DNA from: a virus
IMG/VR virus record: IMGVR_UViG_3300027771_000036
Coordinates: 1 to 40,167 of that record
Length of the DNA stretch: 40,167 nt
Reading direction: 5' to 3' (one strand)
How positions within the stretch are numbered: the first letter of the stretch is position 1; each line of letters starts with the position of its first letter. The position numbers and the translations under genes are program-made. Positions 3,995 through 30,000 of the stretch are shown here, in pieces. The notes beneath the pieces are model-generated. The model ran no database searches, had not been told where the DNA came from, and saw nothing but the letters and a program-made list of their open reading frames with translations.

Positions 3995-5314
3995 TTATGC
4001 TCCGGTGTAATTAGGTAGGTACTTGAATGCTGGGTCTGCATCTCGAGATGTTTCAGACTGCTTCATAACATTATCAAGGCCAAGTTTAGCAGCCTGTTTA
4101 TCTTTTAACACTCTCTCAGTGTACATACTTGCACGCTGTTCAGTACTTGTAACTAGTGCATCATCTAACTGAGTATTAGCTCGTACAGTGGAATCTACTG
4201 TTTCTACTAGCTGAGCAGTCTTTATTTCTTCTTCAGTACCCAGGATTATTTGTTGTAAGTCAGAGGTTTCTTTTTCTTCATCAAGCAGTACACGCTGTTT
4301 AGTGCCAGTAGCTTCTGCTTCGGACATTTGACGTTCTTTTACATCAACACCTTTTTTGATATCTAAAATTTGGTTAGCTATTACGCCGTCTACCCCGTTG
4401 TTTAGTGCTTCCGACTCAATCTGCTCTTGTTTAAGAAGAACATTCTTAGAAGACTCTGCAGTGGCTATTGAAGTTTTAGTTATTACATCTAAGTTCTGTG
4501 ATGTTTTAAGGGTTGTACCAGCTACAATATCAAGCAACTGCTTATCCAGTATCCCATCTAGTGTATTCTGCTTATCTTCTGACTCAGTTTTCTCTATGGT
4601 AAGTTTAACGTTCTCTATTGAGTTCAAAACTTCTTGTTCAGCATTAAGTACATTCTGTTCTTTAACAAGAACATCTTGGGAACCTATAGCTATCTGTGTG
4701 TCTTTAAGTAACCTATCTTTAATACCATTCAGTACTAGTTCTGATTCCTGACTCTGAAGTAAGTCAACCTGCTCCTGTATTTGTAGAAGCTTCTCAGGGT
4801 TCATAGAAGTAGCTTCAAATTGCTTAAGCTCTTCTTCTGTATCTAGCAACGTTTGCTGCTTAATATTGGTAGTGTGTTGGTCAACTTGTAAGGTAGTATT
4901 CTCATAAGACTTTATAAGTAAATCTTCAGCTAATATAAGCTGTTGAGCATCTGAAGTTTCTTTTTGCTCATCAAGAAGTATACGATTCTTAGCACCGGTA
5001 GCTTCTTTCTCAACCATATCACGTTCAGAAACATCAACCTGTTTGATAATCTGAAGACGCTGTTCTGCTTTTACAAGATTATCAGCTAATACACCAGCTA
5101 CTTGAGCCTCTGTAAGCTCATCTTGCATGTGGAATTGTATACTTTGTGCAAGTGCTGCTTGCATGCTTCCAAGGTATACAGTGGCGTAGTCAGTGCCTGT
5201 AATTCTGTTGTTTAAATACTGTGTTTCTATTTGACCGTTAATGCTGTCCATCAACTTATCGAAAACGCCAGTACCTCCAGTGTTAGTTACGTCATCTATA
5301 TTAATGTCAGCCAT
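3995..5314 (-). CDS. Long coiled-coil virion protein with internal repeats
   Basis: 439 residues, with AAGGA about 6 nt before the ATG. Almost the whole protein after residue 60 is a Glu/Gln/Leu/Ile-rich coiled coil. It contains an internal duplication: a segment near residue 95 (VSERDMVEKEATGAKNRILL, then DEQKETSDAQQLIL) recurs near residue 320 (VKERQMSEAEATGTKQRVLL, then DEEKETSDLQQIIL). The N-terminus MADINIDDVTNTGGTGVFD is copied in a separate 30-codon ORF just upstream (5393-5485). It is probably an elongated internal or tail component of the virion. No enzymatic motif is seen. Confidence 0.8.
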   Translation of the reverse strand: MADINIDDVTNTGGTGVFDKLMDSINGQIETQYLNNRITGTDYATVYLGSMQAALAQSIQFHMQDELTEAQVAGVLADNLVKAEQRLQIIKQVDVSERDMVEKEATGAKNRILLDEQKETSDAQQLILAEDLLIKSYENTTLQVDQHTTNIKQQTLLDTEEELKQFEATSMNPEKLLQIQEQVDLLQSQESELVLNGIKDRLLKDTQIAIGSQDVLVKEQNVLNAEQEVLNSIENVKLTIEKTESEDKQNTLDGILDKQLLDIVAGTTLKTSQNLDVITKTSIATAESSKNVLLKQEQIESEALNNGVDGVIANQILDIKKGVDVKERQMSEAEATGTKQRVLLDEEKETSDLQQIILGTEEEIKTAQLVETVDSTVRANTQLDDALVTSTEQRASMYTERVLKDKQAAKLGLDNVMKQSETSRDADPAFKYLPNYTGA

Positions 5315-5392: not shown

Positions 5393-5485
5393 CTACTCAA
5401 TGTGTTTATTGATACTCTCCATAAGGACATCGAATGTACCTGTGTTACTGCCATTTGTTACGTTTTCTATATTAATATCAATCAT
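5393..5485 (-). CDS. 30-residue mini-paralogue of the next gene's N-terminus
   Basis: This short ORF translates as MIDINIENVTNGSNTGTFDV followed by LMESINKHIE and a stop. It aligns almost end to end with the first 30 residues of the 439-aa virion protein that follows (MADINIDDVTNTGGTGVFDK, LMDSINGQIE), then stops. It has its own SD (AAAGG about 8 nt before the ATG). It may be a functional small protein, for instance a competitor for a binding site of the long protein, or the remnant of a tandem duplication. Intact frame, conservative substitutions and a retained SD favour expression. Confidence 0.55.
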   Translation of the reverse strand: MIDINIENVTNGSNTGTFDVLMESINKHIE

Positions 5486-5563: not shown

Positions 5564-5809
5564 ATGTATAAAACTGCAATAGGTATTGCTCTGCTTCTAT
5601 CAGCTTGCTCGTCTACATCCTCTGTACATACTTTAAGTATACATGGTGTAGAAAGTGGAATGATTACATTACTAAAAAGCGGATATAACGTAAATGGTAC
5701 CCGTATATGCATTTACAAGCTTAAAAACACATCTAACATACACATTGATGCACATGATGTAGGTAGTATAAATAACTTTACGTGCCCGAAAGTATTAAGT
5801 ATAAATTAG
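5564..5809 (+). CDS. Small predicted lipoprotein on the opposite strand
   Basis: 81 residues. It starts MYKTAIGIALLLSACSS: Lys at position 3, a short hydrophobic core, then the lipobox L-S-A-C with the Cys at about residue 15, typical of signal peptidase II substrates. The mature part is about 65 residues with two further Cys. The frame extends upstream but lacks a sensible start there. The chosen ATG has no strong SD, which lowers confidence. It is the only likely plus-strand gene in the 36 kb of minus-strand genes and converges on the ThiE-like gene. Phage lipoproteins in such positions often block superinfection (T5 Llp type); that role is inference. Confidence 0.6.
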   Translation: MYKTAIGIALLLSACSSTSSVHTLSIHGVESGMITLLKSGYNVNGTRICIYKLKNTSNIHIDAHDVGSINNFTCPKVLSIN

Positions 5810-5824
5810 TTACCGTGTTGTCTG

Positions 5825-6421
5825 TTATAGGCTTTTAATTTTTTGTAAAGTCTTTTGTATGTCTTTACTTCTGTATATGTCACCAATAATAGCTACTTTA
5901 AATACGCCTTTTTCTTTTACTTCAAAAGCGTTTTCTGCTGTAACACCACCTATAGCCACAATACGTTTTTTAGTGTTCTCTACTACACACTTTAAAGTGT
6001 TAATATTTACAGTACCATCAAAAATGTTTGTGTTAGTGGTAGTTTTAAACATTGGTCCTACACCTAAATAGTCAGCATTCTTATAGTAGTCTGTTCTCAG
6101 TTGATTTATGCTGTTTATTGTGTACCCTATACTGCAGCTACTTGGTAGTACTTCTCTTGCTTCTATTATACAAGTATCAGTGGGGCCTAAATGTACACCG
6201 TCAGCATTAAAAACTAGAGCTGCTTTTACATTATTATTAACTATAAAAGGTACGTTATAGTAACTACACATATGTCTTAGCTTCCGTCCTACGGCGTAGT
6301 AGCCTTCACCTTCCCAACAAAATTGAAAAGTATCTATTCCATTTTTTAGAACTTCTAAGCTTATATCAAATACCTTAAGTCTATGCTCTTTAGTGTAGCT
6401 AGTTAAAAATTCTATATCCAA
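5825..6421 (-). CDS. ThiE/TenI-like thiamine phosphate synthase homologue
   Basis: 198 residues, about the length of bacterial ThiE. Family motifs are clear: FIVNNN (59-64; usual FIVNDR), ADGVHLGPTD (73-82), SIGYT (97-101), ADYLGVGPMFKTTTN (116-130) and VAIGGVTAEN (155-164), in the order of a TIM-barrel ThiE. ThiE joins HMP-PP and a thiazole phosphate to make thiamine phosphate. Several pyrophosphate/Mg residues differ: the QxRxK strand is FQFCWEGEG, the Asp after VN is Asn, and the Lys after TxT is Asn. Catalysis is therefore doubtful; a TenI-like or repurposed role is possible. The TTG start at 6421 overlaps the end of the preceding SAM-binding gene by 10 nt and has AGGTG just upstream, so translation is probably coupled. 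Confidence 0.85.
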   Translation of the reverse strand: MDIEFLTSYTKEHRLKVFDISLEVLKNGIDTFQFCWEGEGYYAVGRKLRHMCSYYNVPFIVNNNVKAALVFNADGVHLGPTDTCIIEAREVLPSSCSIGYTINSINQLRTDYYKNADYLGVGPMFKTTTNTNIFDGTVNINTLKCVVENTKKRIVAIGGVTAENAFEVKEKGVFKVAIIGDIYRSKDIQKTLQKIKSL

Positions 6422-7560
6422 GGTACACCTAGTAAATTCACTTCGACCACGTTTCCATAAGGTTTATTGCTGTAGTAGACAACCTCATCCAAAAAAGGGA
6501 ATCCGGTACCTAACAGTACCTCCAGTTCTTTTGGAGGAAGTGAGTAAGCATTGCTTACTGGTATGTTTTTTTGCAGCAGCTCACCTGTTTTAGACGTTTT
6601 ATCGTGACCTTTATTCAGATATATGGCCTTTACTTTTTTAGTAACTAAATCTAGTTCCTCAGAAAAACACTCATTACTATTAGTTATCCTATAAAAGTCT
6701 GTAATTTTATTATCTTTGTATTTTACAGAGTACCAAATGTTTTCATGTTTCCATGCAACTTGTACAGAATCATACATATTTGTCGATAAGTTAAAAATAC
6801 ACAAATACGGTAGAACATCACAAGTTTTATCATAAGGTAAGTCAAAAGAGTTTTCTTTTACTAGGTCAGATAATTTTTCTATATCTTCAGACAAGAATAC
6901 ATCATATATGTGTTTTTTAATGTTACTGTTTGTAGTGTTTAAAACATCAAATACAGCGTTATTGGCAGGTACATAATCATCACCGTAAAATCGTATATTA
7001 GGGCTTAAATGTGAAAACATGCCTACTTCTACATCGTCACTAAGATTGTAGTGGTCTAAGCATAAGTAGTCATACGTCTTTGTTGCGTTTTCTATACTGT
7101 CATTAACTATTGTGACCTTATTCTTTGGTAACTCTGTATCGAGATAAAGGGCTATAACCTCTTTACTGATTTCATACACTGTTACACTAGTCACGTCTTT
7201 GCTTATGTTTAGTATAGTAGTTACCACACCAAGACCGAGGCCGGACACACACACATCACCTTTTACACCAATAAATTGAGAAGATAAATTTTCTATATCA
7301 CGAATATTGGTGGTCATCCAAACCTTATCTTTTTCCTTTAGTACATAGCTATTATTACTTACACAGATTTCGAAATCGCCAAAAGTACCTGCTTTTAAGC
7401 CTAAAAACATAACTGAGGTAGGGCTTATACTACTATTAGTAGGTATAGTAGGTAGAGTTTCTGTGTCCTGTACCTTTTCTACTTTGCCGACACTTTTATC
7501 ATCTTGCATAAAGCTTATAACTCTTTTCACTTTACCTTCGTTGTTTTTTACAACTAACAT
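6412..7560 (-). CDS. SAM-dependent methyltransferase / spermidine-synthase-like protein
   Basis: 382 residues with AGGAG about 5 nt before the ATG. The middle is a class I SAM-binding Rossmann fold: the glycine motif SGLGLGVVTTIL (about 106-117), the acidic ribose-binding position in VTVYEIS (126-132), and DSIENATKTYDYLCLDHYN (154-172), resembling the D-x-I-x-D strand of spermidine synthases and related enzymes. Residues 50-100 form a preceding beta domain with VLKEKDKVWMTTN. The 180 or so C-terminal residues are unrecognised. It ends inside the start of the ThiE-like gene. The substrate is unknown; a small molecule, nucleotide or virion protein are all possible. Confidence 0.75.
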   Translation of the reverse strand: MLVVKNNEGKVKRVISFMQDDKSVGKVEKVQDTETLPTIPTNSSISPTSVMFLGLKAGTFGDFEICVSNNSYVLKEKDKVWMTTNIRDIENLSSQFIGVKGDVCVSGLGLGVVTTILNISKDVTSVTVYEISKEVIALYLDTELPKNKVTIVNDSIENATKTYDYLCLDHYNLSDDVEVGMFSHLSPNIRFYGDDYVPANNAVFDVLNTTNSNIKKHIYDVFLSEDIEKLSDLVKENSFDLPYDKTCDVLPYLCIFNLSTNMYDSVQVAWKHENIWYSVKYKDNKITDFYRITNSNECFSEELDLVTKKVKAIYLNKGHDKTSKTGELLQKNIPVSNAYSLPPKELEVLLGTGFPFLDEVVYYSNKPYGNVVEVNLLGVPWI

Positions 7561-7571
7561 GACGCTCCTAG

Positions 7572-8582
7572 TTATTGAAATATAGTGTATGGTACACTGA
7601 TACTGGCGTAAAAATCACCAACTATTATACCTCTATTCTGATTAAGCTCAAAATTAGTAGAGGCAAAGACGTGAGCACCAGCAGAATCCCTTCCTACATA
7701 ATAAGAGGATATAGCGTATGTGTCTCTAATAGGCAAAGGTCCGCCTGGTGATTGGGAGGTAGGCTCTATAACCAACCAAGAGTCTTTACCACTAGCTAAT
7801 GTGTTTGTTGTCATTGCTACATCCCTATCAAAAAATACACCATTAGCAGGTGCTACCTGGAAATAACTACTATAATTTAGTTGCCCTGAGCTTGAATAAA
7901 CCTTCAATCCATAACCACTAGAAATATCAGCTACTGCATCTGCACGTCTGAATACTCTATATTGCACACTACTAGCTGAAGCAATAAGCTTAGAGTTTGG
8001 GTGTTTGATTGTACCATACCTCAAACGAGCCAGTCTTTCGCTAGGTTTTAACTTTATAGATACAATGTCATCCTCTCGTAACTGTGGGTATGAGTTGTAG
8101 TGATACCACTGACTATTAAAAGAGGTTGCTGCTTGATAAGAATCATAGTACATAGTACCTTCCTCTACCACTACATAAACAGGATACTTACTACTAATAA
8201 TACTCTGGTCTAATCCATTTTTTATATATAGCCCATAACCACTTTCTGCAGGGACTACACGAAAAAACCATATAAACTTTATAGTACCATATTCAGTAGG
8301 AGCTGTCTGAGTACCCCATGCAAACCCATTACGAGTAGTTACTTTTATCCTACTATTACCGTCATCAAAAGATAATGCATACATTGACAAATACTGGTTA
8401 CTCTCGTCGTCTACGCGTAAAAACCCATTAGTACGTGACCAACCTGCTGGATAGGCTACGTAGTAAATAGTATCTACGTTATCTACAAATTGGCAGTTTA
8501 TTGTAGTGGTGCTTATGTAACTGGCAGGAGTTATTACCTCAGCATCATAGCTTCCTGTGTTTAAACTAAGACCATAACTCAT
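7572..8582 (-). CDS. Tail protein with repeated YGL modules
   Basis: 336 residues. It begins MSYGLSLNTGS and has related starts later: SGYGLYIKNGLDQSIISSKY near residue 115 and SGYGLKVYSSSGQLNYSS near residue 223. The YGL-plus-beta-hairpin pattern resembles small phage tail proteins annotated near lambda-J-like fibres (DUF6453-like), a recollection not checked by search. The rest is Tyr/Ser-rich and beta-rich, as in receptor-binding or tail-tip proteins. It follows the 2045-aa fibre gene after a 52-nt gap holding a promoter candidate. A host-recognition accessory role is inferred. Confidence 0.7.
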   Translation of the reverse strand: MSYGLSLNTGSYDAEVITPASYISTTTINCQFVDNVDTIYYVAYPAGWSRTNGFLRVDDESNQYLSMYALSFDDGNSRIKVTTRNGFAWGTQTAPTEYGTIKFIWFFRVVPAESGYGLYIKNGLDQSIISSKYPVYVVVEEGTMYYDSYQAATSFNSQWYHYNSYPQLREDDIVSIKLKPSERLARLRYGTIKHPNSKLIASASSVQYRVFRRADAVADISSGYGLKVYSSSGQLNYSSYFQVAPANGVFFDRDVAMTTNTLASGKDSWLVIEPTSQSPGGPLPIRDTYAISSYYVGRDSAGAHVFASTNFELNQNRGIIVGDFYASISVPYTIFQ

Positions 8583-8634: not shown

Positions 8635-11600
8635 TTACGCAAGATTCCCTAGTTTAACTCTTAAAACATTACCATCCCAAACTTCTATACTGTCGCTACC
8701 AATAACCAATCTAGAACCAGAAGTAGCACTTTTTACATTTAGTGTGCCAGAAAAAGTAGCATTTTTACCTATTATTATATCTGATACTAAAGCTGAAGAA
8801 GCAATAGTTCCTTTAACTACTTGGTTACCATTTACAGTAAAAGTCCCTTGTGCAGACCAACTACTGCCGGTGTACTCGTATATGTGGGTCCATCCATTAA
8901 CAGTATCAGTATTTGTAACTACTAATGTATCTCCTGCTATTTCTGTATCATAGTTAGAAGATGCTGCTGAATTCCAGTAAGTACCACAATCACTTGCAGC
9001 AGCTGCTGTAGACAAAGAGTTTAAGTCAGCTGAATAACTAAGTACCGCAGTTCCTCTAGGACCCTCTGCCCCATCAACAGCTGCGTTTACATAAGCTGTA
9101 GCAGCAGAGCCATGCTCTACTTTAATATTTTTAGCAAATGCTAAACCGGTAGTTATATTACTTGGATAGTGATAAACATTAACGTAGATAGGAGTACCAC
9201 TTGCAGCATCTGCTGGGACAGTCATAGTAGCGCTTAGTCTTTCGTAAGAAAGACTTACAGACCCTACACTACCAGAAGCAGTCCAAGGAGTATTATATAT
9301 ATATAACCTCGACTGCGCCTCAGCGGTTTTAGCATCACTGTCTATTTTTAAATCAGCAGATACCGTGAGTACATCTCCCGCACTCAAATCTACGCCTACC
9401 GTACCTACTAGCCTGCTATAAAAGCCATAAGCATTACTGGATAATTCTGCTGCCCCCTTTTTCAGAATATTGGCATTTACACCGTCAGTACCGTCTTCAC
9501 CTACAAATTTTACATAAGTAAGACCACTAGGTACTGTTGTAGGAGCAGTGACGGACCAATCATAGAAGTTCACATACTCCTGAGAGATGTAAGTGAATGT
9601 AGCGTTAAGACCAGCAGTGTTATCAGCGTATATAGGAAGCACACCTGCACTATCTCCGTTCTCGCCTACAAACAGTGTGTAAGTTAGCCCAGAAGGTATA
9701 GAAACTGGTGCCGATACGGTCCATTCATAGTAGTTAGCATAACGTTTAGTGCCTTGTGTAAATGACGTATTAGTTCCGGCAGCATCATCTGAATATATGA
9801 TAGTTATACCAGAAGCATCTCCAACACCTCCATCAACTACAGTGGCTACTTCACCATTACTGAACGTTAAAGTTGTAGCATCTCCGACTTTACTGGCCAC
9901 AACTGTTAACGCATCAGGAGATATACCATCTACTCGATGTGAGTATACTATTGCTGTAGACCAAGAAACGGATACACTGGTTTGTGTAGAATTGCCTGTA
10001 ACCAGTGCTGTTGAAGCATAAACTTTTTGGTTATCTGCAGTAATGCTGGGTACACCTACAGCCCATCCTGTAGACCCGACAGTTAATACACTGGTTGCTA
10101 AGTTGTACGTACTGGTAGGTAGTGTAGGAGCAGCCCCAGTAGTTGGTACACTGTATATAAATATTTCACGAATTAGCGGATAGTCTATTATTCTTTTATC
10201 TGAGTATACTGAAGATTGTCCACCTTCACCTACCACATCTTTGATTGACCATAAATCTCCGGCACCTGCTGAAACACTACTTACATCTGTGTACCAAGTA
10301 TCAGCTCCACCAGGGTCTGCAGGAGTTGTAGCTTTACGTGTAAACAGGAAATCTGTGTACCCACCGTCTACACCTTTTTCACTAAGTGTAGTCCAGTAGT
10401 CTCCGTCTGCTATGGAGGTTTCTGCAGGAACATCTTGTAGTGATATATAACTAGAACCTTCAGAAGCGACTAAGTCCCCACTGTCATAGACAGCGTAGTA
10501 GTCGTGTAAACCTTTCGGAGTAGTTTTAGTAGCTTCTGTATTTTCTTCTCTTAATACTATACTTGAAGACAGTCCTGTGCCTGTAACTTTAAATACCGCT
10601 TTTACTGTTGGGTGTTCAGGATTCACTATTGAAAATGTCTTAGCACTGACCCAGAACTCACTATCAAATGCAGTACCTTCTGTTAGCCCATCATTAACTT
10701 GGGTAATACCTGATGAATCAAGACCAAACCCCGACTTGTAGTACGAACCGCCTAAAATTACGGTGCTGTCGTAAGCAAACTTATTCTCAACAGATAAGCT
10801 TGATGCATCAGCATACGTCCTACTTGATACAGCTAGGTCATTAATAGACGCAGCTACGTGTCCATGTTTGTTGTTAACAGCATTATTTAAGTCTACAAAC
10901 CACTTACTTCTAGAAACTACAGCTGCTGCGCCAGTAATATTCCATATACTGCCATCAAACCTATACTCCGTAGTATCTCCAGTTAGTGGGTCCAATACAC
11001 TAAGAATGTCGCCTAAAGCTATAAAAGTACCATTACCGGAAACTTCTGGTACAGGTTCTTTGTCACCCCAACCAGTAACCTTCCTATAAAGCACACCACC
11101 AGTAAACCAGAACGAAACAAAACCAGCTGCGACTGTTTCAACAACCTCAGCAACTATCTCTACGTACTGCGCAGGGCTGTTAGTTATAGCACCTCCAACA
11201 TCTAGGTAGTTTCCATCAGCATCTGTATCGTATTCTGCTTCTGATACAACAACATCATAATTAGCAGGTGCAGTAGCACCAGACCATGCATAGAAACTAG
11301 AAATCTTACCGTCAGCAGCACCTTGTGCAGTCTCAGCTACCTTAAGAGACTTAAGCACATCTGTCTGTTCTATAACTGACCAACTATCTGTAGAGCTGCT
11401 GTACCAATACCCATTATCGGTAGTCCTGTTGTAAGCTATATTACCATTAGCTGCCTCAACAACCTCAGCAGTAAGGTAAGTTGCTTTAATATTATCTAGC
11501 TCTGCGGCTTCTAAAGATAGGACAACATCAAAAAAGTAATACTCTAGTTTACCGTCTGTCTGGTTTTGTAGTGTGGCAACTTTAGGGTTCACCTCACCTA

Positions 11601-14600
11601 CGAAAGCGTCTAAATTCTCTGTATACTTCGTAGCTAAAACCCATACAGTACCTACGTAAATGTAAACCTCACCAACAATCTTAGTGGTGTCTGTAGGTGC
11701 TACATTAGGTATCCACATGTCACGCTCTATCATACCAGTAGGAGCAGCAGTGTTGAATATTGTACGTTTACCGTCAGTCAAATCTCTTAAAGCAGCTATA
11801 TTTCCTGTAGAACCTGTCTGTTCTGTCCAACTACTGGCACCATATTTATACACTTTGACTACATCATAAGTGACACCATTAGTGGCAGTAGATAATGTAG
11901 TCTCAACATATAAATCGTTAGTTTCCATTCCTGTTTCTGCGTCTACGTCACTGCCACTGAATACAGTAACAACTCCATCCAGTTCATCAGCAACGTAAGC
12001 TGTAAGAAGAGTAGTTCCATCTATCGTAGCCGTGCTTAAATCTATGGATACTGTGCCGTCTGAAAGACCTGTCTCTAACAACACAACTCTGGTGTCATCA
12101 GTGTATTTGGTAGCTAAAAACCACCCACCGTTATATTGGTATAGTTCACTAGGAATATATGTTAAGTCATCTGAGCCGGTAGTAGGTATCCATATATCAT
12201 TAACTTCACCGGCTGGTACGTCATTTGATACATTTCCGTATATAGTTCTTTTACCATCTGCTACATCAGATAACGCAGTTATATTATTATTAGTGGTGAT
12301 ACTAACCCATTTGAGTCCTGCACCTAGACCACTATTATACTTATACGTGTATACAACATCATATGTAACGTTACTACCACTAACGGATTTTATATCTGTA
12401 GTATTCCAGATGTATATGTCGTTATCTTCAACACCTGTAGGCAAACCATCTGCTGGTGCTACTGTTCCACTGTACACATGAATACGCTTATCAGCTTCTG
12501 AAGCTATATAGCTTACTAATGTAGTATCAGTAGCCCCTATTGTTATAGTAGATGCATCTAGTGGTATTGAACCATCCTGAATTCCAATAACGATATCGTC
12601 ATTAGTATAATCTACTTCAATCCATGTAGGAGTAGCAGTATCTGTACATTTGTATATCTTGCCTACTGTGTATGCCCCTGATGTACTTGAAGGTATCCAT
12701 AGGTCATCAAGCTTAATTTTCTCATCAGTTACATTTGGAGCATTATTAGCAGCATTTCCATATATAGTTCTTTTTCCATCAGCTAAATCGAAAGCGTTTC
12801 TAGAGATATCCGAAGATACTGTCCAAGTGTAATCAAACAGTGCAGCGTTAGGTGACTCTATGTATTCATATACTCTACCTTGAGAGTAAGCACCATCAAC
12901 GTCACAGTACCAGTAATCACCACATCTAAAATCACTAGGTACAGAAGTACTGTCACTAAAAGGAGGTGTAGCACCACCGAAATACGTGTCTACTTTACTA
13001 TCTACTTGGTTAGACAGGTTATCTGTTATTGCATCATACCTTGTTGCCTTAACCCATGAAGAACCACTGTACCTATATATCTCATTTTCAACGTACTCTA
13101 TTACATCAGTGAACGTTGCTGAAGGAAAGAATAAGTCATTGTCCCTAAAAGGATTAGTGATGTCTTCAACAGGAAGGCTATTACCACTGTATATGGTTCT
13201 CTTACCATCAGATAAGTCTGCTAATGCTGTTATGTTGTCATTACTATTTATCTGAACCCAATCAGTACCGTTGTACTTATATGTATTGATAACATCAGTA
13301 GCAACTCCACTATTCCCAGTAGCTGTAGTACTTTCTATGTAGATATCGTTAGTCTTCATACCTGTCTGAGCAGTCTTATCTGTACCACTAAACACTACGA
13401 CTTCTTTATCTATTTCACTTGCAACATATGATGAGAAAGATGTAGTTCCTACGTATGCTTTATCTAAATCTAGTTTCGTATTACCATCAATAAGGAAGCC
13501 TTCCACTAGTGCATCATCAGTATACTTGGTAGCCAACTCCCAGTCTGGAGCAGAGTACGATTCACCCAATAATTTTGGTGTTACACAAATATTTAACTCG
13601 CCTGTAGGACCTTCTGACCATAAATCACCTACATCGTATGGTGCAAACGGAGTAGTTGTGAACACTCTACGTTTATTATCGGCTAAGTCATATGCATTAA
13701 GTGCTTGTTCGTATGCATCTTGTGCAGCTTGGTCTATAATTACTGACCACGTAAATCCTTCAGCATCCGTAGAGTAGTACGGACCTGTAGAATCTACTAC
13801 GGTTTTAATAAATTTGTAGCTTGCAATATACTCTTTAGTTCCGTTACTGGCAGTACTATATTTTATGTACACATCACCTATGTGAGCTAACCTTACGTCT
13901 TCATTTCCAGCTGTGTTGTCATCACTCCACCAACCTGCATAAGGCTCTGCTCCAGTAATTAATTCTGCAGTGAGTGGATTTTGTGGATTAAGTATTACAT
14001 CATACTCATCAGACACTGTCTCTATAACACCATCAGTCTGCTTTTCTACAACAAGAAGTCGTGAAAGTATGCCTGTACCATCAGGTGTTCCTGTGCCGTC
14101 AATTAACCCTACTTGAGTATGTAACCCAGTAACTGCACTAGCCACACCTGACAAATTACTTTCTTGGTCTTCAAACGCAGTTGTTAAAGCATTTAAACTT
14201 ATAGCAGTAGAGCTATCTAAAGCAGCTACTGTGCTATTAACTGTAGTTATCTGTGAAGATATATCAGCAGATAGCGTTGCATTTAAGTCTGTAACTCTAG
14301 TAGCCATAGCTAAGTCATTACCTGCTACAACAACATCTAAATCAACTATCTGTGCAGTATGCTGGCCAACAGTTGTGTTTAAAGTAGCTAAATGCTGACC
14401 TATATGAACACCTAGAAAAGCGTTAAACTGCAGTTCTTCAACATATGTATTAGCAGCTACGTCAATAGAGGCTATAGCGTTTCTTACGTCCTGTACTAAA
14501 GTATCGTAATCTACTAGTCCTGCGTCTACTGATGCTTCAACGGTACTTTCAATTAGGTCAGTAAGCCATGTAGGTGCGTCACCTGAAGCTATATTAATAT

Positions 14601-14772
14601 AGAAAGAATCTCCTACTATAGAGTACTCTTTCTTTACTGCAGTAATTTCTTTGGGGGGTAAGGTATCTACTGTATGGTTGCTTGTATCAGCAGATATTTC
14701 AGTAGCTACGTCTGTAACTATCTCAGTAGTATCTAATATTATTTCAGTAGTTGGTGTAGTTTTAATCGACAT
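8635..14772 (-). CDS. Giant modular tail fibre / host-specificity protein
   Basis: 2045 residues. The N-terminal 250 or so are Thr/Val/Asp-rich with heptad-like helices. Residues from about 340 to 1030 hold at least four copies of a roughly 140-175-residue module marked by D(L/V)xDGKRTI followed by a D(I/L/M)W(I/F)P-like strand and ATKYTD-type linkers; a diverged copy DNKRRVF is near 367. Around 1690-1770 two tandem units end SGLTY.xFVGE(N/D)G, and a short collagen-like GAEGPRGT lies near 1905. The last 90 residues (VNGNQVVKGTIASSALVSDI onward) resemble the C-termini of lambda-J-like fibre proteins. It probably contacts the host receptor. Its start overlaps the previous gene by 11 nt. Confidence 0.9.
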   Translation of the reverse strand: MSIKTTPTTEIILDTTEIVTDVATEISADTSNHTVDTLPPKEITAVKKEYSIVGDSFYINIASGDAPTWLTDLIESTVEASVDAGLVDYDTLVQDVRNAIASIDVAANTYVEELQFNAFLGVHIGQHLATLNTTVGQHTAQIVDLDVVVAGNDLAMATRVTDLNATLSADISSQITTVNSTVAALDSSTAISLNALTTAFEDQESNLSGVASAVTGLHTQVGLIDGTGTPDGTGILSRLLVVEKQTDGVIETVSDEYDVILNPQNPLTAELITGAEPYAGWWSDDNTAGNEDVRLAHIGDVYIKYSTASNGTKEYIASYKFIKTVVDSTGPYYSTDAEGFTWSVIIDQAAQDAYEQALNAYDLADNKRRVFTTTPFAPYDVGDLWSEGPTGELNICVTPKLLGESYSAPDWELATKYTDDALVEGFLIDGNTKLDLDKAYVGTTSFSSYVASEIDKEVVVFSGTDKTAQTGMKTNDIYIESTTATGNSGVATDVINTYKYNGTDWVQINSNDNITALADLSDGKRTIYSGNSLPVEDITNPFRDNDLFFPSATFTDVIEYVENEIYRYSGSSWVKATRYDAITDNLSNQVDSKVDTYFGGATPPFSDSTSVPSDFRCGDYWYCDVDGAYSQGRVYEYIESPNAALFDYTWTVSSDISRNAFDLADGKRTIYGNAANNAPNVTDEKIKLDDLWIPSSTSGAYTVGKIYKCTDTATPTWIEVDYTNDDIVIGIQDGSIPLDASTITIGATDTTLVSYIASEADKRIHVYSGTVAPADGLPTGVEDNDIYIWNTTDIKSVSGSNVTYDVVYTYKYNSGLGAGLKWVSITTNNNITALSDVADGKRTIYGNVSNDVPAGEVNDIWIPTTGSDDLTYIPSELYQYNGGWFLATKYTDDTRVVLLETGLSDGTVSIDLSTATIDGTTLLTAYVADELDGVVTVFSGSDVDAETGMETNDLYVETTLSTATNGVTYDVVKVYKYGASSWTEQTGSTGNIAALRDLTDGKRTIFNTAAPTGMIERDMWIPNVAPTDTTKIVGEVYIYVGTVWVLATKYTENLDAFVGEVNPKVATLQNQTDGKLEYYFFDVVLSLEAAELDNIKATYLTAEVVEAANGNIAYNRTTDNGYWYSSSTDSWSVIEQTDVLKSLKVAETAQGAADGKISSFYAWSGATAPANYDVVVSEAEYDTDADGNYLDVGGAITNSPAQYVEIVAEVVETVAAGFVSFWFTGGVLYRKVTGWGDKEPVPEVSGNGTFIALGDILSVLDPLTGDTTEYRFDGSIWNITGAAAVVSRSKWFVDLNNAVNNKHGHVAASINDLAVSSRTYADASSLSVENKFAYDSTVILGGSYYKSGFGLDSSGITQVNDGLTEGTAFDSEFWVSAKTFSIVNPEHPTVKAVFKVTGTGLSSSIVLREENTEATKTTPKGLHDYYAVYDSGDLVASEGSSYISLQDVPAETSIADGDYWTTLSEKGVDGGYTDFLFTRKATTPADPGGADTWYTDVSSVSAGAGDLWSIKDVVGEGGQSSVYSDKRIIDYPLIREIFIYSVPTTGAAPTLPTSTYNLATSVLTVGSTGWAVGVPSITADNQKVYASTALVTGNSTQTSVSVSWSTAIVYSHRVDGISPDALTVVASKVGDATTLTFSNGEVATVVDGGVGDASGITIIYSDDAAGTNTSFTQGTKRYANYYEWTVSAPVSIPSGLTYTLFVGENGDSAGVLPIYADNTAGLNATFTYISQEYVNFYDWSVTAPTTVPSGLTYVKFVGEDGTDGVNANILKKGAAELSSNAYGFYSRLVGTVGVDLSAGDVLTVSADLKIDSDAKTAEAQSRLYIYNTPWTASGSVGSVSLSYERLSATMTVPADAASGTPIYVNVYHYPSNITTGLAFAKNIKVEHGSAATAYVNAAVDGAEGPRGTAVLSYSADLNSLSTAAAASDCGTYWNSAASSNYDTEIAGDTLVVTNTDTVNGWTHIYEYTGSSWSAQGTFTVNGNQVVKGTIASSALVSDIIIGKNATFSGTLNVKSATSGSRLVIGSDSIEVWDGNVLRVKLGNLA

Positions 14773-15828: not shown

Positions 15829-17010
15829 CTATGCTGAAGCAGATACCATTAGTTTAAGTAACTTATCTTCTTGCAAGATGATACCTGCGTAGAAGAAGTT
15901 ATACGAGAAGAAACCGTTTGTACCGTAAGTGTTGCCACTATCGATTTTAGAAGGAGACTTCGAGTTAAACTTAATTTTACCTTGACCTTTAAGACCAACT
16001 GTAGCAAAAGAGCCTTCAGTAGGGAAAAGGATAGGGAAAACATCGTAGTTAGTACCATCATTAGACAAGCTAGCAGTGTTACCATCAGAAGATGTAAGTG
16101 CACCAGCACCGTTGTAAACTACTGCTGATTCTGATTCGATGAAGCGTACTTCATGCATAGCACCAACTTCGCCATCAGCTAATGTATCTGCTGAAGCGTA
16201 TTTGTGAGATGCAATGTAGCTGAACTCTTCAGTAGAACCAGTACCACGAGTGATTGTTTCTAAATCACCTTTAACGTTTGCACCGATAATTGCGTAGTAC
16301 GCTTTAGCGATAGTACGTGTATCAATCTTCACGTCACCAGATACTAGCATGGTGTTTTTCTTAGCACGGTTACGCACTAGTTTACGTACTGCTTTACGCA
16401 TTAAATCGTAGTTTACAGTTGAACTGCCATCTACAGTTACGTTAGAGGTAGCAGAACCACCAAACATTACGTTACCAGTAGCTAACATATCACGCTGTAA
16501 CAAGTCTTCTTGACGAGAGTTTGCTAGCTCACCAAGTTCTTCACGATAGCGTACTTGCATTGAATCTTCAGAGAAAAGTTCAACTTCATCAGTGTAGTCA
16601 ATCATTTCGCCGTAACGTGCTAAGCTTGTTTCCATAGTTACTTTTTTCAAAACAACTTTGTTTACGTTAGTAGCACCTTCACCCAATGAAGCAGCAGCAT
16701 CTAAGCCAGTAGTGATTGCGTCAATAGAACGAGCACTTAAGAAACCTTTGTCGCTAAACTCAGCATCATCTAAAGCACGGTCATATAAATGTAAGAACTT
16801 AGAGATTTTAAAAGTCTTACCCATTTTCTTAGGCATAGACTTACGGTCAGCGAACTGGCCATATAAGTTTACACGGTTAGCGGCTTTAACACCTGCACGG
16901 TCATAAAAATGAGTTACTGTGTTACCAAGAGCAGTGCCCTTGTTAACGCCATTTTGCATTGTACCGTCAACTGTTGCGGTAGTAGTACCGTTACCATATG
17001 TATTAGACAT
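15829..17010 (-). CDS. Major capsid protein, N4-gp56 family
   Basis: 393 residues. The pattern GKTFKISKFLHLYDRA (65-80), VTMETSLARYGEMIDYTDEV (about 124-143), then a long Glu/Arg/Leu helix (REELGELANSRQEDLLQRDM) and YDLMRKAVRKLVRN is typical of N4-gp56-type capsid subunits with the HK97 fold; about 390 residues is the usual length. The protein should form the icosahedral shell. GGAAAA precedes the ATG. The gene follows the scaffold with a 52-nt gap and is followed by a strong terminator, as expected for a highly expressed gene. Confidence 0.93.
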   Translation of the reverse strand: MSNTYGNGTTTATVDGTMQNGVNKGTALGNTVTHFYDRAGVKAANRVNLYGQFADRKSMPKKMGKTFKISKFLHLYDRALDDAEFSDKGFLSARSIDAITTGLDAAASLGEGATNVNKVVLKKVTMETSLARYGEMIDYTDEVELFSEDSMQVRYREELGELANSRQEDLLQRDMLATGNVMFGGSATSNVTVDGSSTVNYDLMRKAVRKLVRNRAKKNTMLVSGDVKIDTRTIAKAYYAIIGANVKGDLETITRGTGSTEEFSYIASHKYASADTLADGEVGAMHEVRFIESESAVVYNGAGALTSSDGNTASLSNDGTNYDVFPILFPTEGSFATVGLKGQGKIKFNSKSPSKIDSGNTYGTNGFFSYNFFYAGIILQEDKLLKLMVSASA

Positions 17011-17062: not shown

Positions 17063-18325
17063 TTACATTGAGTCCTGTAGGTTCTTATACCACGCATCAA
17101 AACTTTCGTCTGATTCGTCAAGGTAGTCCGTAACACCACTGGTAGCAGAGGCACTTTTCGTAGGTGCTGCTGCTTTACGTTTGGCTGAAGCTTTTTGAGC
17201 TGCAACACGCTTACTAGACTCAGCTTTAGCATTAGACTTTCTAGTTTCTTCCGCTTCTTCAGCTTCGGAGTTCCTCTGGATAGTTTGTTGCTCTAACTTT
17301 GTTGCCTTAGCAGCATCTTGTTTAACTTTAAATGCTTTTGTATCAGCCTCTTTACTAAAGTGTTGCTGAGCAGCCAACTTATAATAGTCTAAATCTGCTT
17401 TAGTTCCACCATCAAAGACTTTTAGCTTTTCAGCGATAGGCTGTAATGTTCCATACATCCCACTTTTCACGTCTTCGTGAAGTAACTTAATCATGTTAGG
17501 GTCTTCTGCCATGGTATTCCATGACTTCTCATCCCATTCCTTAGATAAAATATTATGAGTTGTCGTGTACTCAGTATCTTTGCTTATTTCGTCAACAATA
17601 TCTGAAATAGCCAAAGCACCTTCGTCTCGACCATAATCCTTAGCTTCATAGCCACTATCTGCTTCCGTATCTAATTCGAGGGTATCAGTACCTGTTCGTT
17701 TTAATACTTCAGTAATAGCATCTTTGTCACCCTTCAGCACGTCAATCATAAGACTGACATCGGCGTGATTAAGTTTAGCGTCTTCCATTGCATCTATGGT
17801 TTTACGCCAAGGTTTGATGGCTTGCATCTTTTTGGTGTAATCCATAGCTTTCCCAAATATCTTAGGAAACTGGTCTACTATCTCATCACTCGAAAATTCA
17901 TAATCTTTCCCATTTGCTTTGAAAGCATATGAACGTGCTGGTTGCGGTTCATCTTCAACTTTATCAGTCTCTTCAGAACTTTCTTCTTCTTCTGATTTAG
18001 CATCCCCGTCAGGATTATCTACGTCAGTTTCAGCAGTGTCGTCTTCAGTTACTTCTTCAGTTTCATCTTCTTCGCTAGCATCATGGTCAGAGGCCTCAAT
18101 TTCACTTTCGGTTTGTTCTGCACCATCTTCTTCTAATTCATTATCTAGTTCTACTGTTTCATCAGCGTCTTCTTCAGGACTTTCTGATTCTGCAAATTCT
18201 TCTGTTTCAGCAGCTGGTTCTGCTTCTTCAATGTCGGTATCGGGTGACTTTGCACTAGCAACAGCTTCTTTATAAGCAGCTTCTAGGTCTTCGTCAGACA
18301 TATCCCATAATTCATTATCATCCAT
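17063..18325 (-). CDS. Capsid scaffolding protein
   Basis: 420 residues just upstream of the major capsid gene. The first 130 are extremely acidic (Glu/Asp/Ser/Thr-rich). A middle region (about 130-300) is predicted helical, with YAFKANGKDYEFSSDEIVDQ near 131-150. The last 90 residues are basic and Ala/Lys-rich, ending in DYLDESDESFDAWYKNLQDS. An acidic body plus basic C-terminal tail is the usual scaffold design, where the tail binds the capsid protein inside the prohead. AGGAG lies just before the start. No protease domain is visible. Confidence 0.85.
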   Translation of the reverse strand: MDDNELWDMSDEDLEAAYKEAVASAKSPDTDIEEAEPAAETEEFAESESPEEDADETVELDNELEEDGAEQTESEIEASDHDASEEDETEEVTEDDTAETDVDNPDGDAKSEEEESSEETDKVEDEPQPARSYAFKANGKDYEFSSDEIVDQFPKIFGKAMDYTKKMQAIKPWRKTIDAMEDAKLNHADVSLMIDVLKGDKDAITEVLKRTGTDTLELDTEADSGYEAKDYGRDEGALAISDIVDEISKDTEYTTTHNILSKEWDEKSWNTMAEDPNMIKLLHEDVKSGMYGTLQPIAEKLKVFDGGTKADLDYYKLAAQQHFSKEADTKAFKVKQDAAKATKLEQQTIQRNSEAEEAEETRKSNAKAESSKRVAAQKASAKRKAAAPTKSASATSGVTDYLDESDESFDAWYKNLQDSM

Positions 18326-18336
18326 CTGAGTGCTCC

Positions 18337-18645
18337 TTACTCTTCATCTTCATCTGGTTCAGGTGGTATATTACCTAAATTTTCGATAGTGATGAAATGG
18401 TCTTCAAGTTGTGAGATAGCAATTAAACTTTCCATCACAGCACTTCTATGACCACCAGACACTACAGCATCTTGTGCTAGTAGACTAACTCCGTTTATAG
18501 CTTTATCTTTAAAGTAACCTTCTAAAATTACTCTTTGGAATCGTGGGTCTTTTTTAAGAGCTTCTAAATCTTCCCACATTTTTACCCAGTATTCATTTTC
18601 CACAGTAAGAATTTGTTGTTCATTTTCATTTTCAAGGTTATTCAT
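18337..18645 (-). CDS. Small conserved head-region protein
   Basis: 102 residues, AAGGAT about 9 nt before the ATG. The core KKDPRFQRVILEGYFKDKAI followed by a helical LLAQDAVVSGGHRSAVMESL looks like a small protein often encoded between portal and scaffold in N4-gp56 capsid phages; its role is unknown to me. The C-terminus is acidic (PPEPDEDEE). It is the first gene after a good promoter at 18711-18740, so it leads the scaffold/capsid transcript. Confidence 0.8.
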   Translation of the reverse strand: MNNLENENEQQILTVENEYWVKMWEDLEALKKDPRFQRVILEGYFKDKAINGVSLLAQDAVVSGGHRSAVMESLIAISQLEDHFITIENLGNIPPEPDEDEE

Positions 18646-18710
18646 TATTTGAATCCTTTATCCTGTTAGTTTTTAGTAACGTGCAAATGCAGTAGTTACC
18701 GTCTGAGCTT

Positions 18711-18740
18711 ATTATATACATGCTTTACAGCGATTTACAA
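18711..18740 (-). promoter_or_regulatory. Sigma-70 promoter for scaffold and capsid genes
   Basis: On the minus strand: TTGTAA (18735-18740), 18-nt spacer, TATAAT (18711-18716). It overlaps the last codons of the 45-residue basic ORF and precedes the 102-aa gene, scaffold and capsid. It fits a separate strong transcript ending at the terminator at 15785-15808. Confidence 0.65.
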
Positions 18741-18872
18741 TTTTTTCGCCTTATTGCCTGGTTTTTTACACTTTTTCTTCTTAGTTTTAGGTTTATCTAC
18801 TGTGCCACCGTAGTAGTGAGTAGTACTCTGCCCTTCACCACCTGCGTAGTGATGTGCTAAACCATCAGCCAT
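18735..18872 (-). CDS. 45-residue basic protein
   Basis: MADGLAHHYAGGEGQSTTHY followed by a lysine-rich tail (PKTKKKKCKKPGNKAKKL). The ATG is 2 nt after the stop of the preceding 87-aa gene, the same stop-TT-ATG junction used at 617/620, which supports coupled translation. The highly basic C-terminus suggests nucleic acid binding, for example DNA inside the head. No family was recognised. Too short for standard ORF length cut-offs. Confidence 0.6.
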   Translation of the reverse strand: MADGLAHHYAGGEGQSTTHYYGGTVDKPKTKKKKCKKPGNKAKKL

Positions 18873-18874
18873 AA

Positions 18875-19138
18875 CTACTGGCCAACCATTTGTTGTGCAA
18901 GACCGCCTTGGCCTTGTTGGGGTTGTGCAGGAGCTTGTTGTTGTGCTGCCATTTGCTGTTCAAGAATAGCGATAGCTTCCATAATCATTTCAGGCGGAAC
19001 ACCCATCTTCTCTAATTCTTCTGGAGGAATACCTTCCATAAGTAAGGCAACGATTTCTTCTATTGATGGCATTCCTCCTTGAGCTGCTGTTGGTGCTTGC
19101 TGCTGTGTTTGTGCCATACTTGATGCTAAACCTTCCAT
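18875..19138 (-). CDS. Small Gln/Ala/Pro-rich head-region protein
   Basis: 87 residues. A low-complexity start and end (QQQAPTAAQGG; AQQQAPAQPQQGQGG) flank a helical core SIEEIVALLMEGIPPEELEK, then GVPPEMIMEAIAILEQQM. Comparable short proteins lie beside portal genes in related phages, but their function is not known to me. AGGAG lies about 7 nt before the ATG. The next gene starts 2 nt after its stop. Confidence 0.75.
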   Translation of the reverse strand: MEGLASSMAQTQQQAPTAAQGGMPSIEEIVALLMEGIPPEELEKMGVPPEMIMEAIAILEQQMAAQQQAPAQPQQGQGGLAQQMVGQ

Positions 19139-23625: not shown

Positions 23626-25593
23626 TTAACTTATTATGTCGAGGTACACATTCAGCGTACCAATGGTTGCTCCTAACCTTGCTTCTGCAAAGCTAAGTGT
23701 TGGTGATGAGCTTAGTGTTTTGCTTGGTGTACGTAACCAAAACTTTTTACTTGGAAACCCTGAACCGTTACCACTAGTCTCAGCATACACATACCAACTA
23801 TCATCGACCCCATCTGCATCAACCCTACCAGTACCGCTGCTAGGTGTACCACCCGTGTCTCTATTCCAACTACCGATGGTTGTACCGGCTACCAGCCCAG
23901 ACCACGCAACACTCGGATATGTATCTTCCTGTGCCGTACTTACTTCCATACTGTGGGTCGAACCTCCAAAGGTAGAAAGAGTGCCATCTACATTAATAGT
24001 ATCCAACTGCATATCACCCGTATAGCTAGAGCCTCCAATATACTCAAATACTACCCTAACTGTCTTACCTGCATAAGCGGAGATATCTATGTTATGTGTA
24101 GTCCATGCGTTCACTTCACCTGATATTGTCAGTAATGGGTCTGTTAGCCCTAGTGATGTACCTCCTGGGCAAGTTCCCCATACTGGGGTATTGGCTGTTA
24201 TTAGTGCGCTATTGTGACTGAAATAGTTGGCCCCTCCGATTAGGTTAACGCACCAACCTGATAAATCTTGATTGAAGTTGGTAGCTTCTTGGAACATGTA
24301 GTCCATAGTATTAACATTACTTACATCCCAAGAACTAATATCTTGATTGAACTGAGTAGCAACACCGAACATAAACCTCATAGTAGTAACTGAACTAACG
24401 TCCCAGCTGCCAATATCTTGATTGAATACACTGGCGTATGCAAAGGTTCCGGCTAGGTAAGATACATTAGCAGGCAAAACTAAAGGTACTTGCACTAAGT
24501 TTGTCGCGGAGTAGAAAGCATTGCTCAGGTTAGTGATGCCTAAATCACCAAAACTTAAACACTTTCTAATCTTATTATTATGTGTGTAGACTTCGCCATT
24601 CCCATGCCCGTACCCATCCAGACTACCTGTAATAATAACCTGATACACACCGCCAGTAGCGTAAGAGTGGAGTTTGTAGCCAGTGGTAGTATAGGTGTCG
24701 CTAGTGCCATCACCCCAATCTACTAAAACATCCACATCTGAGGATAGTGGAATACCCACCTCAGTTGTCCCATCACCTAATGTTGTATCGAACTCTAAAG
24801 TAAAAGGTTGTACGGGACAGGTTCCCCACACTGGGGTATTAGATACGGTTAGTGCACCATCAGTTTTAAAACCTGTAGGTTCGGTAAGCATTGTAGGGAC
24901 ACACCAACCTGATAAGTCTTGGTTGAAAGTAGTGGCCCTGTAGAACATATACGTCATATCATTAACATTACTTACATCCCAATTATTTATATCTTGATTG
25001 AAGCTATAGGCATAGAAGAACATGGCTCGCATATTAGTAACATTACTTACGTCCCAAGAACTGATGTCTTGATTAAAGTTATAGGCTTCGTTAAACATAC
25101 TTCGGGTACTAGTAACATTACTTATATCCCAATTACCTATATCTTGGTTGAAGATATGGGCCTTGAAGAACATATAAGACACATCAGTAACAGTGCTAGG
25201 GAGTTCATCAGGTACTACAGTTAAACTACTACAATCCCAAAAGCAGCGATGTAAAGAAGTAATTCCTAAGTTCCCAAAGCTGGTACACCTAGTCAGTTTG
25301 GCATTATGAGGTGGAGTAAACACACTCCCAAAAGCCTCCAATGCACCTGAAATTCTTACTGTGTATATTCCACGCACCGAGTAGTTGTGGCTTGCCAGAT
25401 TTGTAGTAACTGCATGACTAGAGCCATCTCCCCAATTGATTGTCACATCTACTGAGGTGACTGAGGTGCCATCACCAAGAGCTACTGCTATGTCATTTGA
25501 ACCATCACCTAATGAGGTATCAAATACTAGAATAAGGTCGTCACTAGCCACACTGTCTGCGGATGCTGCTAATAGTGTTTTATATAACAACAT
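23626..25593 (-). CDS. PKD/DUF285 (BspA-type) repeat receptor-binding candidate
   Basis: 655 residues, two similar halves plus a tail. Each half has a PKD-like beta domain with INWGDGSS or VDWGDGTS (near 50 and 285), then BspA-type repeats of about 25 residues with FNQDI(G/S)xWD(V/I)S(N/S)V: four in the first half (138-231), three in the second (384-451). Both halves end in GWC....NTPVWGTCP, with paired Cys. The last 180 residues look like a beta-sandwich carbohydrate-binding or MAM-like domain ([19 protein letters not shown]). DUF285 repeats are common on bacterial surface proteins; here they probably form a phage adhesin. The start overlaps the preceding stop (TAATG). Confidence 0.82.
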
Positions 25594-27021: not shown

Positions 27022-30000
27022 TTAACATCCCGTACAGCTAGTCGGGAGTGCTGGAGTGTTAGCACAAGTTAGTACTGCGGATTCATTGAAGCCAGTACAA
27101 GATGTAACAGAACTTACGTCCCATGAACTTATGTCTTGGTTAAACTCATATGTTTCACTAAACATAGCCTCCATATTCGTAACAGAACTTACGTCCCAAG
27201 AACTTATATCTTGGTTAAAAAACGTAGACCGAAACATAGCCTGCATATTAGTAACTGAACTTACGTCCCATGAACCTATGTCTTGGTCAAAATACGTACT
27301 AGAGAGCATGTCCTGCATATTAGTAACTGAACTTACGTCCCATGAACCTATGTCTTGATTAAAATACGTAGCCTGAAACATACCAGACATATTAGTAACA
27401 GAACTTACATCCCAAGAACTTATATCTTGATTAAAAGGCGCAAAAGTGAACATGTACTGCATATCCGTAACAGAACTTACGTCCCATGAACCTATGTCTT
27501 GATTAAAAAACGTACCATGAAACATGTACTTCATATTCGTAACTGAACTTACATCCCAAGAACTTATATCTTGATTAAAATCCGCAGCCTGAAACATAGC
27601 CTCCATATTCGTAACAGAACTTACATCCCAAGAACCTATGTCTTGATTAAAATCCGCAATCTGAAACATATACTGCATATTCGTAATAGGTACACTTGTG
27701 TATATACCCTCGTTAGGTACAAACATATATCCAAGGGTACTTCTAGCTGGACAATAACTGTTCGTAGGGTCAGTAGCTTCCGTAGGTAATGGGTAGAAAA
27801 ATCGTGGAGCGTTAACAGTTATAACAAAGTCATACTTCTTAATTACTATAAAATCGTCTACATTGGCTGCGTCATTTAATACTACTGATGTACCGTTAGT
27901 CGCCACAAAGTCAGAACTTGCTAACTCTACACCATTACGAAGAACGTCAATCGAATTAACATCGTACGTTACGGTAAATTCAGTTTGTCCTGCGCTAGCT
28001 ATAAACTCGTCTTTAACTATGTCTATACCTAAATTTTCCCAAGAGGCAACACTTCCGCTAGTTGATAAGAACTTACCAGCATGACTCGTTTGAGTAGGTA
28101 AAGCATCAATCCCAGTTAACTGAGAACCATCTCCAGTTGGGCTTAATACTGTTGTACCGACATCTCCATCTTTTAATGTGGTGGAATCATCGTAAACTGT
28201 ATCAGTAAACAATGCACCTACAGGTACATTAGTCAATACCTGCCCATCGTCTACTTTACCATCAAGTGCAGTTTGTAAACCCGCAATACCAGAGATACCT
28301 AATGCATCAAGTGTAGTCTTATTAAGCTTAATAAAATTTACTATTTCTTGTAATGTATCAAGAGTACCGTCATTAGACGTAACTAAAGCTTCTAAGTTAT
28401 CTAACTTACTCTTATCTGCGCTTGTCATTGCACCTGCTAATGAAGTTGTAGCTGCATTAAGTACGCCATCCGAACCATCTGAGCTATTAACTGAGACAGT
28501 AGATGAGCCATGAGTTAGTGATATGTCCGTATCAACATTAGATACAATTCCTGAATATAGACTGTTTACTGCATTATTATTCGAATTATCTGTGCCTGCC
28601 ACATCTACATTCAAGTTTGTTCTAGCAGCACTAACACTAGTTAAGTCAGACAAGTTACTAGTCTGTATTAAAGCACCTGAAAGGGAGGCATAAGCTGCTA
28701 TCCATACTGAACCTTCATACACCTTCATGGTGTCTGTAGTGGTATTAAAATATAGAGTCCCAGCAACTAAGGTACCGCCATCATTATCTAATGTAGGGTC
28801 AGAAGTTTTAGAACCTAGGTAGATACCTTCAAACTGGTCTAGTATATTAGAGGCGCTAGCAGCACTGGTAGCTGCATTGCCTGCACTATTAGATGCTGAG
28901 GTATCACTAGCAGCAGAGTTTGCTGCACTTGTTGCTGCACCTGATGCACTTGATGCTGAGGATGTAGCACTGTTAGCCGAACTAGTAGCACTAGCTGCTG
29001 AACTTGTGGCACTAAATGCTGAGTTACCCTCAGACACTGAAGCTGCTGTTTCTGAAGCGGCTGCGTTAGCTTCACTTGTAGCTGCATTAGTCTCACTGCT
29101 AGAAGCGTTGGATTCACTTAAAGCTGCGTTAGTTGCTGAAGTAGCTGCTTGAGTTGCACTTGTAGCAGAATCACCTGCACTACTAGAAGCATTATTTTCA
29201 CTAGTAGCGGCATTAGTCTCAGAAGTTAAAGCATTAGCTTCACTTGTAGCTGCACTAGATGCACTAGTAGCAGCGTTTGTTTCTGAAGTTTTAGCGTTAT
29301 TTTCTGACACTAAAGCAGCAGCAGCTGACGTTGAAGCTTCATCGGCTTTAGTTACTGCGGTGGAAGCTGCAGTAGACGCTATACCTTCACTAGTATCAGC
29401 ATTAGTGGCAGAAGTAGATGCGCTATCAGCACTTATAACTGCTTCCCCTGCTTTAGTTGTTGCAGTTAATGCAGCAGCTGTAGCAGATGCTTGAGGGTCT
29501 TCCCAAGTAGCACCATTATAGAAACGTGTGTGGTTTAGCGTACTGTTAAAGTAAATAGCACCTGTAAGTAAAGCAGCACCATCGTTATCTAACGTAGGGT
29601 CACTAGCTTTAGTTCCAAGATACCTGTCATCAAAAGTATCATATAAGTTTTCAACAGCAATCTTATCTGCGGCTGTACTTGCAGCATCTGAAGAAGTCTG
29701 TATTTGGTCAGCGTTAGTCTGAACCAGGTCGTCAGCTACTGCGGTTCTATCTAGGCCCGTCTGTATTCTGTCAGCCTGTGCTGATTGTTGGTCTGCGTCT
29801 GTAAGTACTAAATCTGCGGCAACAGCAATTCTATCCAAACCTGTCTGTACTTTATCAGCCTCTGCAAGAATTACATCAGCGTGAGTTAACACAACGTCTG
29901 CATTTGTTAAAACTACATCGGCATTTGTTACGCCTACTGCAGCAGTAGTTGATTGTTGGTCCAAATCTGTTTGAACTAAATCTGCTGCTACAGCTGTCCT

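Follow-up and report, generated by a model that had tools for sequence, protein, structure and literature searches.

A ThiE-fold protein with replaced active-site ligands, encoded beside a SAM-domain protein in the tail cassette of an N4-like phage

The window analyzed here, a 40,167-base linear IMG/VR record (IMGVR_UViG_3300027771_000036) from an N4-like phage, carries a short gene cassette between two conserved structural genes, which encode a pb4-like tail protein upstream (nt. 8635–14772, minus strand) and the virion structural protein phrog_2050 downstream (nt. 3995–5314, minus strand). The cassette includes a 198-a.a protein with a ThiE/TenI-type TIM barrel (nt. 5825–6421, minus strand, TTG start) and a 382-a.a protein with a class I SAM (spermidine-synthase-like) core at about residues 64–170 (nt. 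6412–7560, minus strand, ATG start). These two ORFs lie in tandem on the same strand and overlap by 10 nt (nt. 6412–6421); their coordinates, the overlap, and the location among tail and virion genes are exactly those given in the original prediction. A search by eye for a slippery heptamer that might fuse the two ORFs by frameshifting found none. Upstream in the same gene run lies a 336-a.a protein (nt. 7572–8582, minus strand) with no database match, whose 'MSYGL' start recalls, by eye only, phage tail-tip proteins. On the other side of the ThiE-like gene, we noted a truncated, 30-a.a copy of the phrog_2050 N-terminus (MIDINIENVTNGSNTGTFDVLMESINKHIE, followed by a stop codon; nt. 5393–5485, minus strand), in which 55 of 90 bases are identical to the adjoining intact gene, and which is possibly a recombination scar beside the cassette.

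The gene order of the window is that of the Alteromonas phage AD45-P1, comprising the portal, tape measure, capsid, pb4-like tail, and phrog_2050 virion proteins, followed by two genes without assigned function. Given that the major capsid protein (nt. 15829–17010) shares 72% identity with its counterpart in the Alteromonas phages AD45-P1 to P4, the host is, by this sequence similarity, probably Alteromonas or a relative. A scan of the window for promoters and terminators returned no more sites than were found in shuffled sequence.

In AD45-P1 phage, the pb4-like gene directly adjoins the phrog_2050 gene, with nothing in between, while in other kin the same stretch holds tail-tip-like, weakly glycosyltransferase-like, DUF7936, and NlpC/P60 ORFs; one relative (L024) has ORFs that resemble, by eye only, the 336-a.a protein at the same place. 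We looked for the ThiE-like and SAM-domain genes in 50 records of related viruses, two of them complete phage genomes and 48 of them IMG/VR contigs, and found neither gene; many of the contigs are short and may miss the site. Because kin do not have the pair, AD45-P1 phage has no insert, and other kin have different ORFs, the variable cassette seems to have received the pair by an insertion specific to this lineage. A helper acting on the tail or the host surface together with the SAM-domain protein would suit both the position between a tail and a virion gene and the kinds of ORF that kin carry there; however, the pairing is absent from those kin and the protein folds like a soluble enzyme, making this quite unlikely. 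In the related contig L011 (nt. 18061–19034), the variable stretch holds a weakly glycosyltransferase-2-like ORF followed by a DUF7936 ORF.

The 198-a.a protein matches the Pfam TMP-TENI family with an E-value of 2.5e-36 and 125 bits (cut-off 27) and scores 137.2 bits with the TIGR00693 thiE model, narrowly missing the equivalog cut-off of 145.1; its score with the TenI equivalog model, 49.6 bits, is far below the cut-off of 251. Its AF2 model, built with 49 cellular ThiEs, is confident over almost the full length (pLDDT 93.9), and the top Foldseek matches in the PDB are ThiE structures, the best being B. subtilis ThiE (2TPS; E = 8.7e-17, TMq 0.87), with TenI structures at TMq 0.75–0.78. The ThiE rows used in the AF2 run favor a ThiE fold; nonetheless, the sequence profiles agree independently, and the ThiE/TenI fold, in which they place the protein as had been proposed, is firm. 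Cellular proteins share no more than about 40% identity with it, over partial lengths, and ThiEs (TIGR00693; B. subtilis 2TPS and P. furiosus 1XI3), whose TIM barrel the phage protein has over its full length, share about 25–35%. A frameshifted pseudogene was ruled out, as the reading frame is intact, and the GC3 of the gene (0.23) is like that of the remaining phage genes.

We compared the active site with that of 110 cellular ThiEs, made up of 80 motif-selected sequences (mostly Bacillota) and 30 gammaproteobacterial sequences drawn by profile, using B. subtilis ThiE numbering. We take R59, K61, and K159 to be pyrophosphate ligands and D93 and D112 to be Mg ligands, roles that, like the numbering, reportedly go back to crystal papers on B. 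subtilis ThiE from 1999 and 2001. The phage protein has Cys at R59, Glu at K61, Asn at D93, and Asn at K159, positions that are otherwise conserved in 109/110 (R59 and K61) or 110/110 (D93 and K159) of the cellular ThiEs; the R59 and K61 exceptions are gaps in one truncated ThiE, i.e., all sequences with those columns conserve them. All three pyrophosphate ligands are absent, and D112 is the one Mg ligand retained. Also retained are Q57, N92, H107, T156, T158, and the GG phosphate loop, whereas S130 is Thr, a residue also seen in 8/110 cellular ThiEs. The original prediction had described the pyrophosphate and Mg motifs as changed and the phosphate-binding glycine motif as kept; the latter was borne out by the alignment, and the former for the four replaced residues but not for T156 and T158 (TxTK) or N92 (VND). 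The residue changes are firm. Across the 26 columns conserved in at least 90% of the ThiEs, the phage protein is changed at 7 and retains 19, with changes at 5/11 presumed ligand columns compared to 2/15 others (Fisher p = 0.09), an enrichment in the aligned sequences that is suggestive only. Besides R59C, K61E, D93N, K159N, and S130T, the protein differs from cellular ThiEs in its phage context and in having no thi neighbors.

Judging from these replacements, thiamine-phosphate-synthase chemistry has likely been lost. It is unlikely that the protein, with its altered residues, continues to make thiamine phosphate as the product of an auxiliary metabolic gene: the score near the thiE equivalog cut-off (137 versus 145 bits) and the retention of Q57, N92, H107, D112, T156, T158, and the GG loop speak for it, but the near-invariant charged R59, K61, D93, and K159 are all replaced, no other thiamine gene was detected by Pfam among the scanned ORFs of the window (a genome fragment), and the window has no Rfam match and hence no TPP riboswitch. 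TenI (1YAD and 3QH2), of the same superfamily and fold, provides a precedent for non-ThiE activity on this barrel, and the shared superfamily and the Foldseek matches speak for a TenI-type thiazole tautomerase or related isomerase. This identity is scarcely credible, however, with structural-alignment identity of only 17–18%, the TenI model score noted above, Pro (P123) in place of the catalytic His found in 5/5 TenI comparators, and the loss of R59 and K159, both of which those comparators retain. Given the four ligand replacements and the missing TenI His, thiamine-phosphate synthase and TenI tautomerase are both improbable identities for the protein.

A second comparison is offered by the ThiE-like domain at the C-terminus of gammaproteobacterial Nudix proteins (PRK08999), which shares the ThiE fold and has D112 and K159 changed, as well as D93 in 9/10 sequences, so that it is not a canonical synthase. 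Unlike the phage protein, it retains R59, has His at K159, and is fused to a Nudix hydrolase. It is a precedent for losing the Mg positions and K159. Our tree, of 71 rows, places the PRK08999 domains in a separate, well-supported clade and the TenI sequences in a clean clade with the phage protein outside. The phage protein itself has the longest end branch (2.64, versus a median of 0.58) and no supported position that would point to a source lineage.

No other convincing viral copy of a ThiE-fold protein was found among the collections searched, in line with the rarity of phage ThiE that had been supposed. A tblastn search of INPHARED (50,697 phage records) gave 13 matches, 12 of which adjoin other thi genes (ThiD, ThiM, TenA, ThiC, and others); the remaining one (L268) starts at a contig edge and belongs to the same Listeria sample set. 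All 11 unannotated matches have the R, K, D, K set intact. Given these neighbors and this intact active-site set, we rejected the matches as true phage ThiEs, and they look like bacterial thi-operon DNA in phage records. In IMG/VR, motif scans found no relative; the two DNA patterns recover 67/80 ThiEs chosen with similar motifs but only 8/30 profile-drawn ThiEs of Gammaproteobacteria, making this absence a weak negative. The sole match of those scans (L176) was a chance match and no ThiE. A fold search of BFVD returned generic TIM barrels only (TMq ≤0.72), with no ThiE-like model standing out, and narrow word searches of an open-access library found no report of a phage ThiE. No relative with the same four residue changes was present in any collection searched. 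The INPHARED records concerned (L268–L275 and L084–L086; Listeria, Enterococcus, Staphylococcus, and faecal clones) hold bacterial thiamine operons that are apparently host contamination.

Searches with the 382-a.a neighbor gave nothing in Pfam or NCBIfam and, by sequence, nothing significant in the PDB, yet its core, with a GLGLG motif, E130, D164, and D169, aligns with a SAM/'spermidine synthase' family of phages. Its AF2 model is poor outside the core (mean pLDDT 52) and confident in the core only, where the best PDB matches by Foldseek are spermidine synthases (TMq about 0.25); together, the alignment and these matches agree with the class I SAM/spermidine-synthase-like fold first suggested, for the core. 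About 200 a.a of the C-terminal part lie beyond the core without an assigned fold. The family includes the Caulobacter phage CcrPW gp338 and a 'polyamine aminopropyltransferase' of the Vibrio phage LV6, with which the 382-a.a protein shares an MSDTPxE-like segment, GDVLxxGLGLG, VxE, and D[IH][WY], while being more divergent and having a long C-terminal extension. The GLGLG, E130, D164, and D169 columns are invariant in the alignment of this family. Annotations in the family vary between methyltransferase and polyamine aminopropyltransferase, and we know of no established function for it. Scanning IMG/VR with a four-sequence alignment found relatives of the core at 23 loci (246 kb in total), in none of which was a ThiE detected by HMM, unlike in the window. 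This speaks against the functional coupling between the two proteins that the original prediction had put forward, as does the absence of both genes from the 50 related records; what links the two is their adjacency, beyond which neither coupling nor a modification of the virion found support. The same prediction's altered-specificity or repurposed reading stands in its other half, given that the loss of ligands argues against a canonical ThiE and for an altered or lost function.

Our best reading is that the phage took up a ThiE, which is now either repurposed or decaying and travels as cargo of a late operon. In its fuller form, a bacterial ThiE would have been captured by the phage lineage and would since have lost thiamine-phosphate-synthase activity, keeping the barrel with its glycine phosphate-binding loop, N92, H107, and D112. 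The pyrophosphate pocket would have turned from net basic to acidic, because it no longer has R59, K61, K159, or D93, the last being one of its two Mg ligands. Expression may be late, with translational coupling to the SAM-domain protein, and the protein may still bind a small ligand, phosphorylated or not, for a purpose unrelated to thiamine. We give this fuller form about an even chance; the residue changes, the PRK08999 precedent, the intact ORF, the confident fold, the phage-like GC3, the longest branch, and the tandem 10-nt overlap count for it, while the lack of a relative with the same changes counts against it, so that selection for a new function is not demonstrable. A new function is nonetheless plausible. 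Alternatively, the captured gene may be a decaying passenger, its function lost and its still-open frame drifting with no role in the phage. This is possible though doubtful: the protein is a singleton on the longest branch of the tree, key catalytic residues are gone, and the variable cassette adjoins a truncated structural-gene scar, but the ORF is intact, AF2 is confident over almost the full length, 19/26 near-invariant columns are kept, and GC3 is like that of the other phage genes. Returning to the repurposed ThiE, one very unlikely, more specific version is that the acidic former pyrophosphate pocket (C, E, and N in place of R, K, and K; D112 retained) holds a cationic group, e.g., an amine or polyamine, and that the protein and its spermidine-synthase-like neighbor process such a compound late in infection as a ThiE-fold enzyme pair.

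If the protein is functional, a virus would here be reusing a fold of vitamin synthesis that no longer has its catalytic ligands. The locus also cautions that a profile match alone is insufficient for calling a gene of this type a thiamine auxiliary metabolic gene, and the ThiE-like/SAM gene pair would be easy to express and assay.

Several further features of the window were noted. The phrog_2050 protein comprises 439 a.a, compared to about 149–256 a.a in several kin, a difference apparently due to internal repeats. Convergent with the ThiE-like gene, and opposite in strand to the tail cassette, lies an 81-a.a ORF (nt. 5564–5809, plus strand; beginning MYKTAIGIALLLSACSS) with a lipoprotein-like signal and lipobox (LLSAC), which recalls, in resemblance only, superinfection-exclusion lipoproteins such as T5 Llp. 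Finally, two large proteins encoded on the minus strand (nt. 23626–25593 and nt. 27022–31146) show strong DUF285 repeats, the latter additionally matching tail-fiber families.
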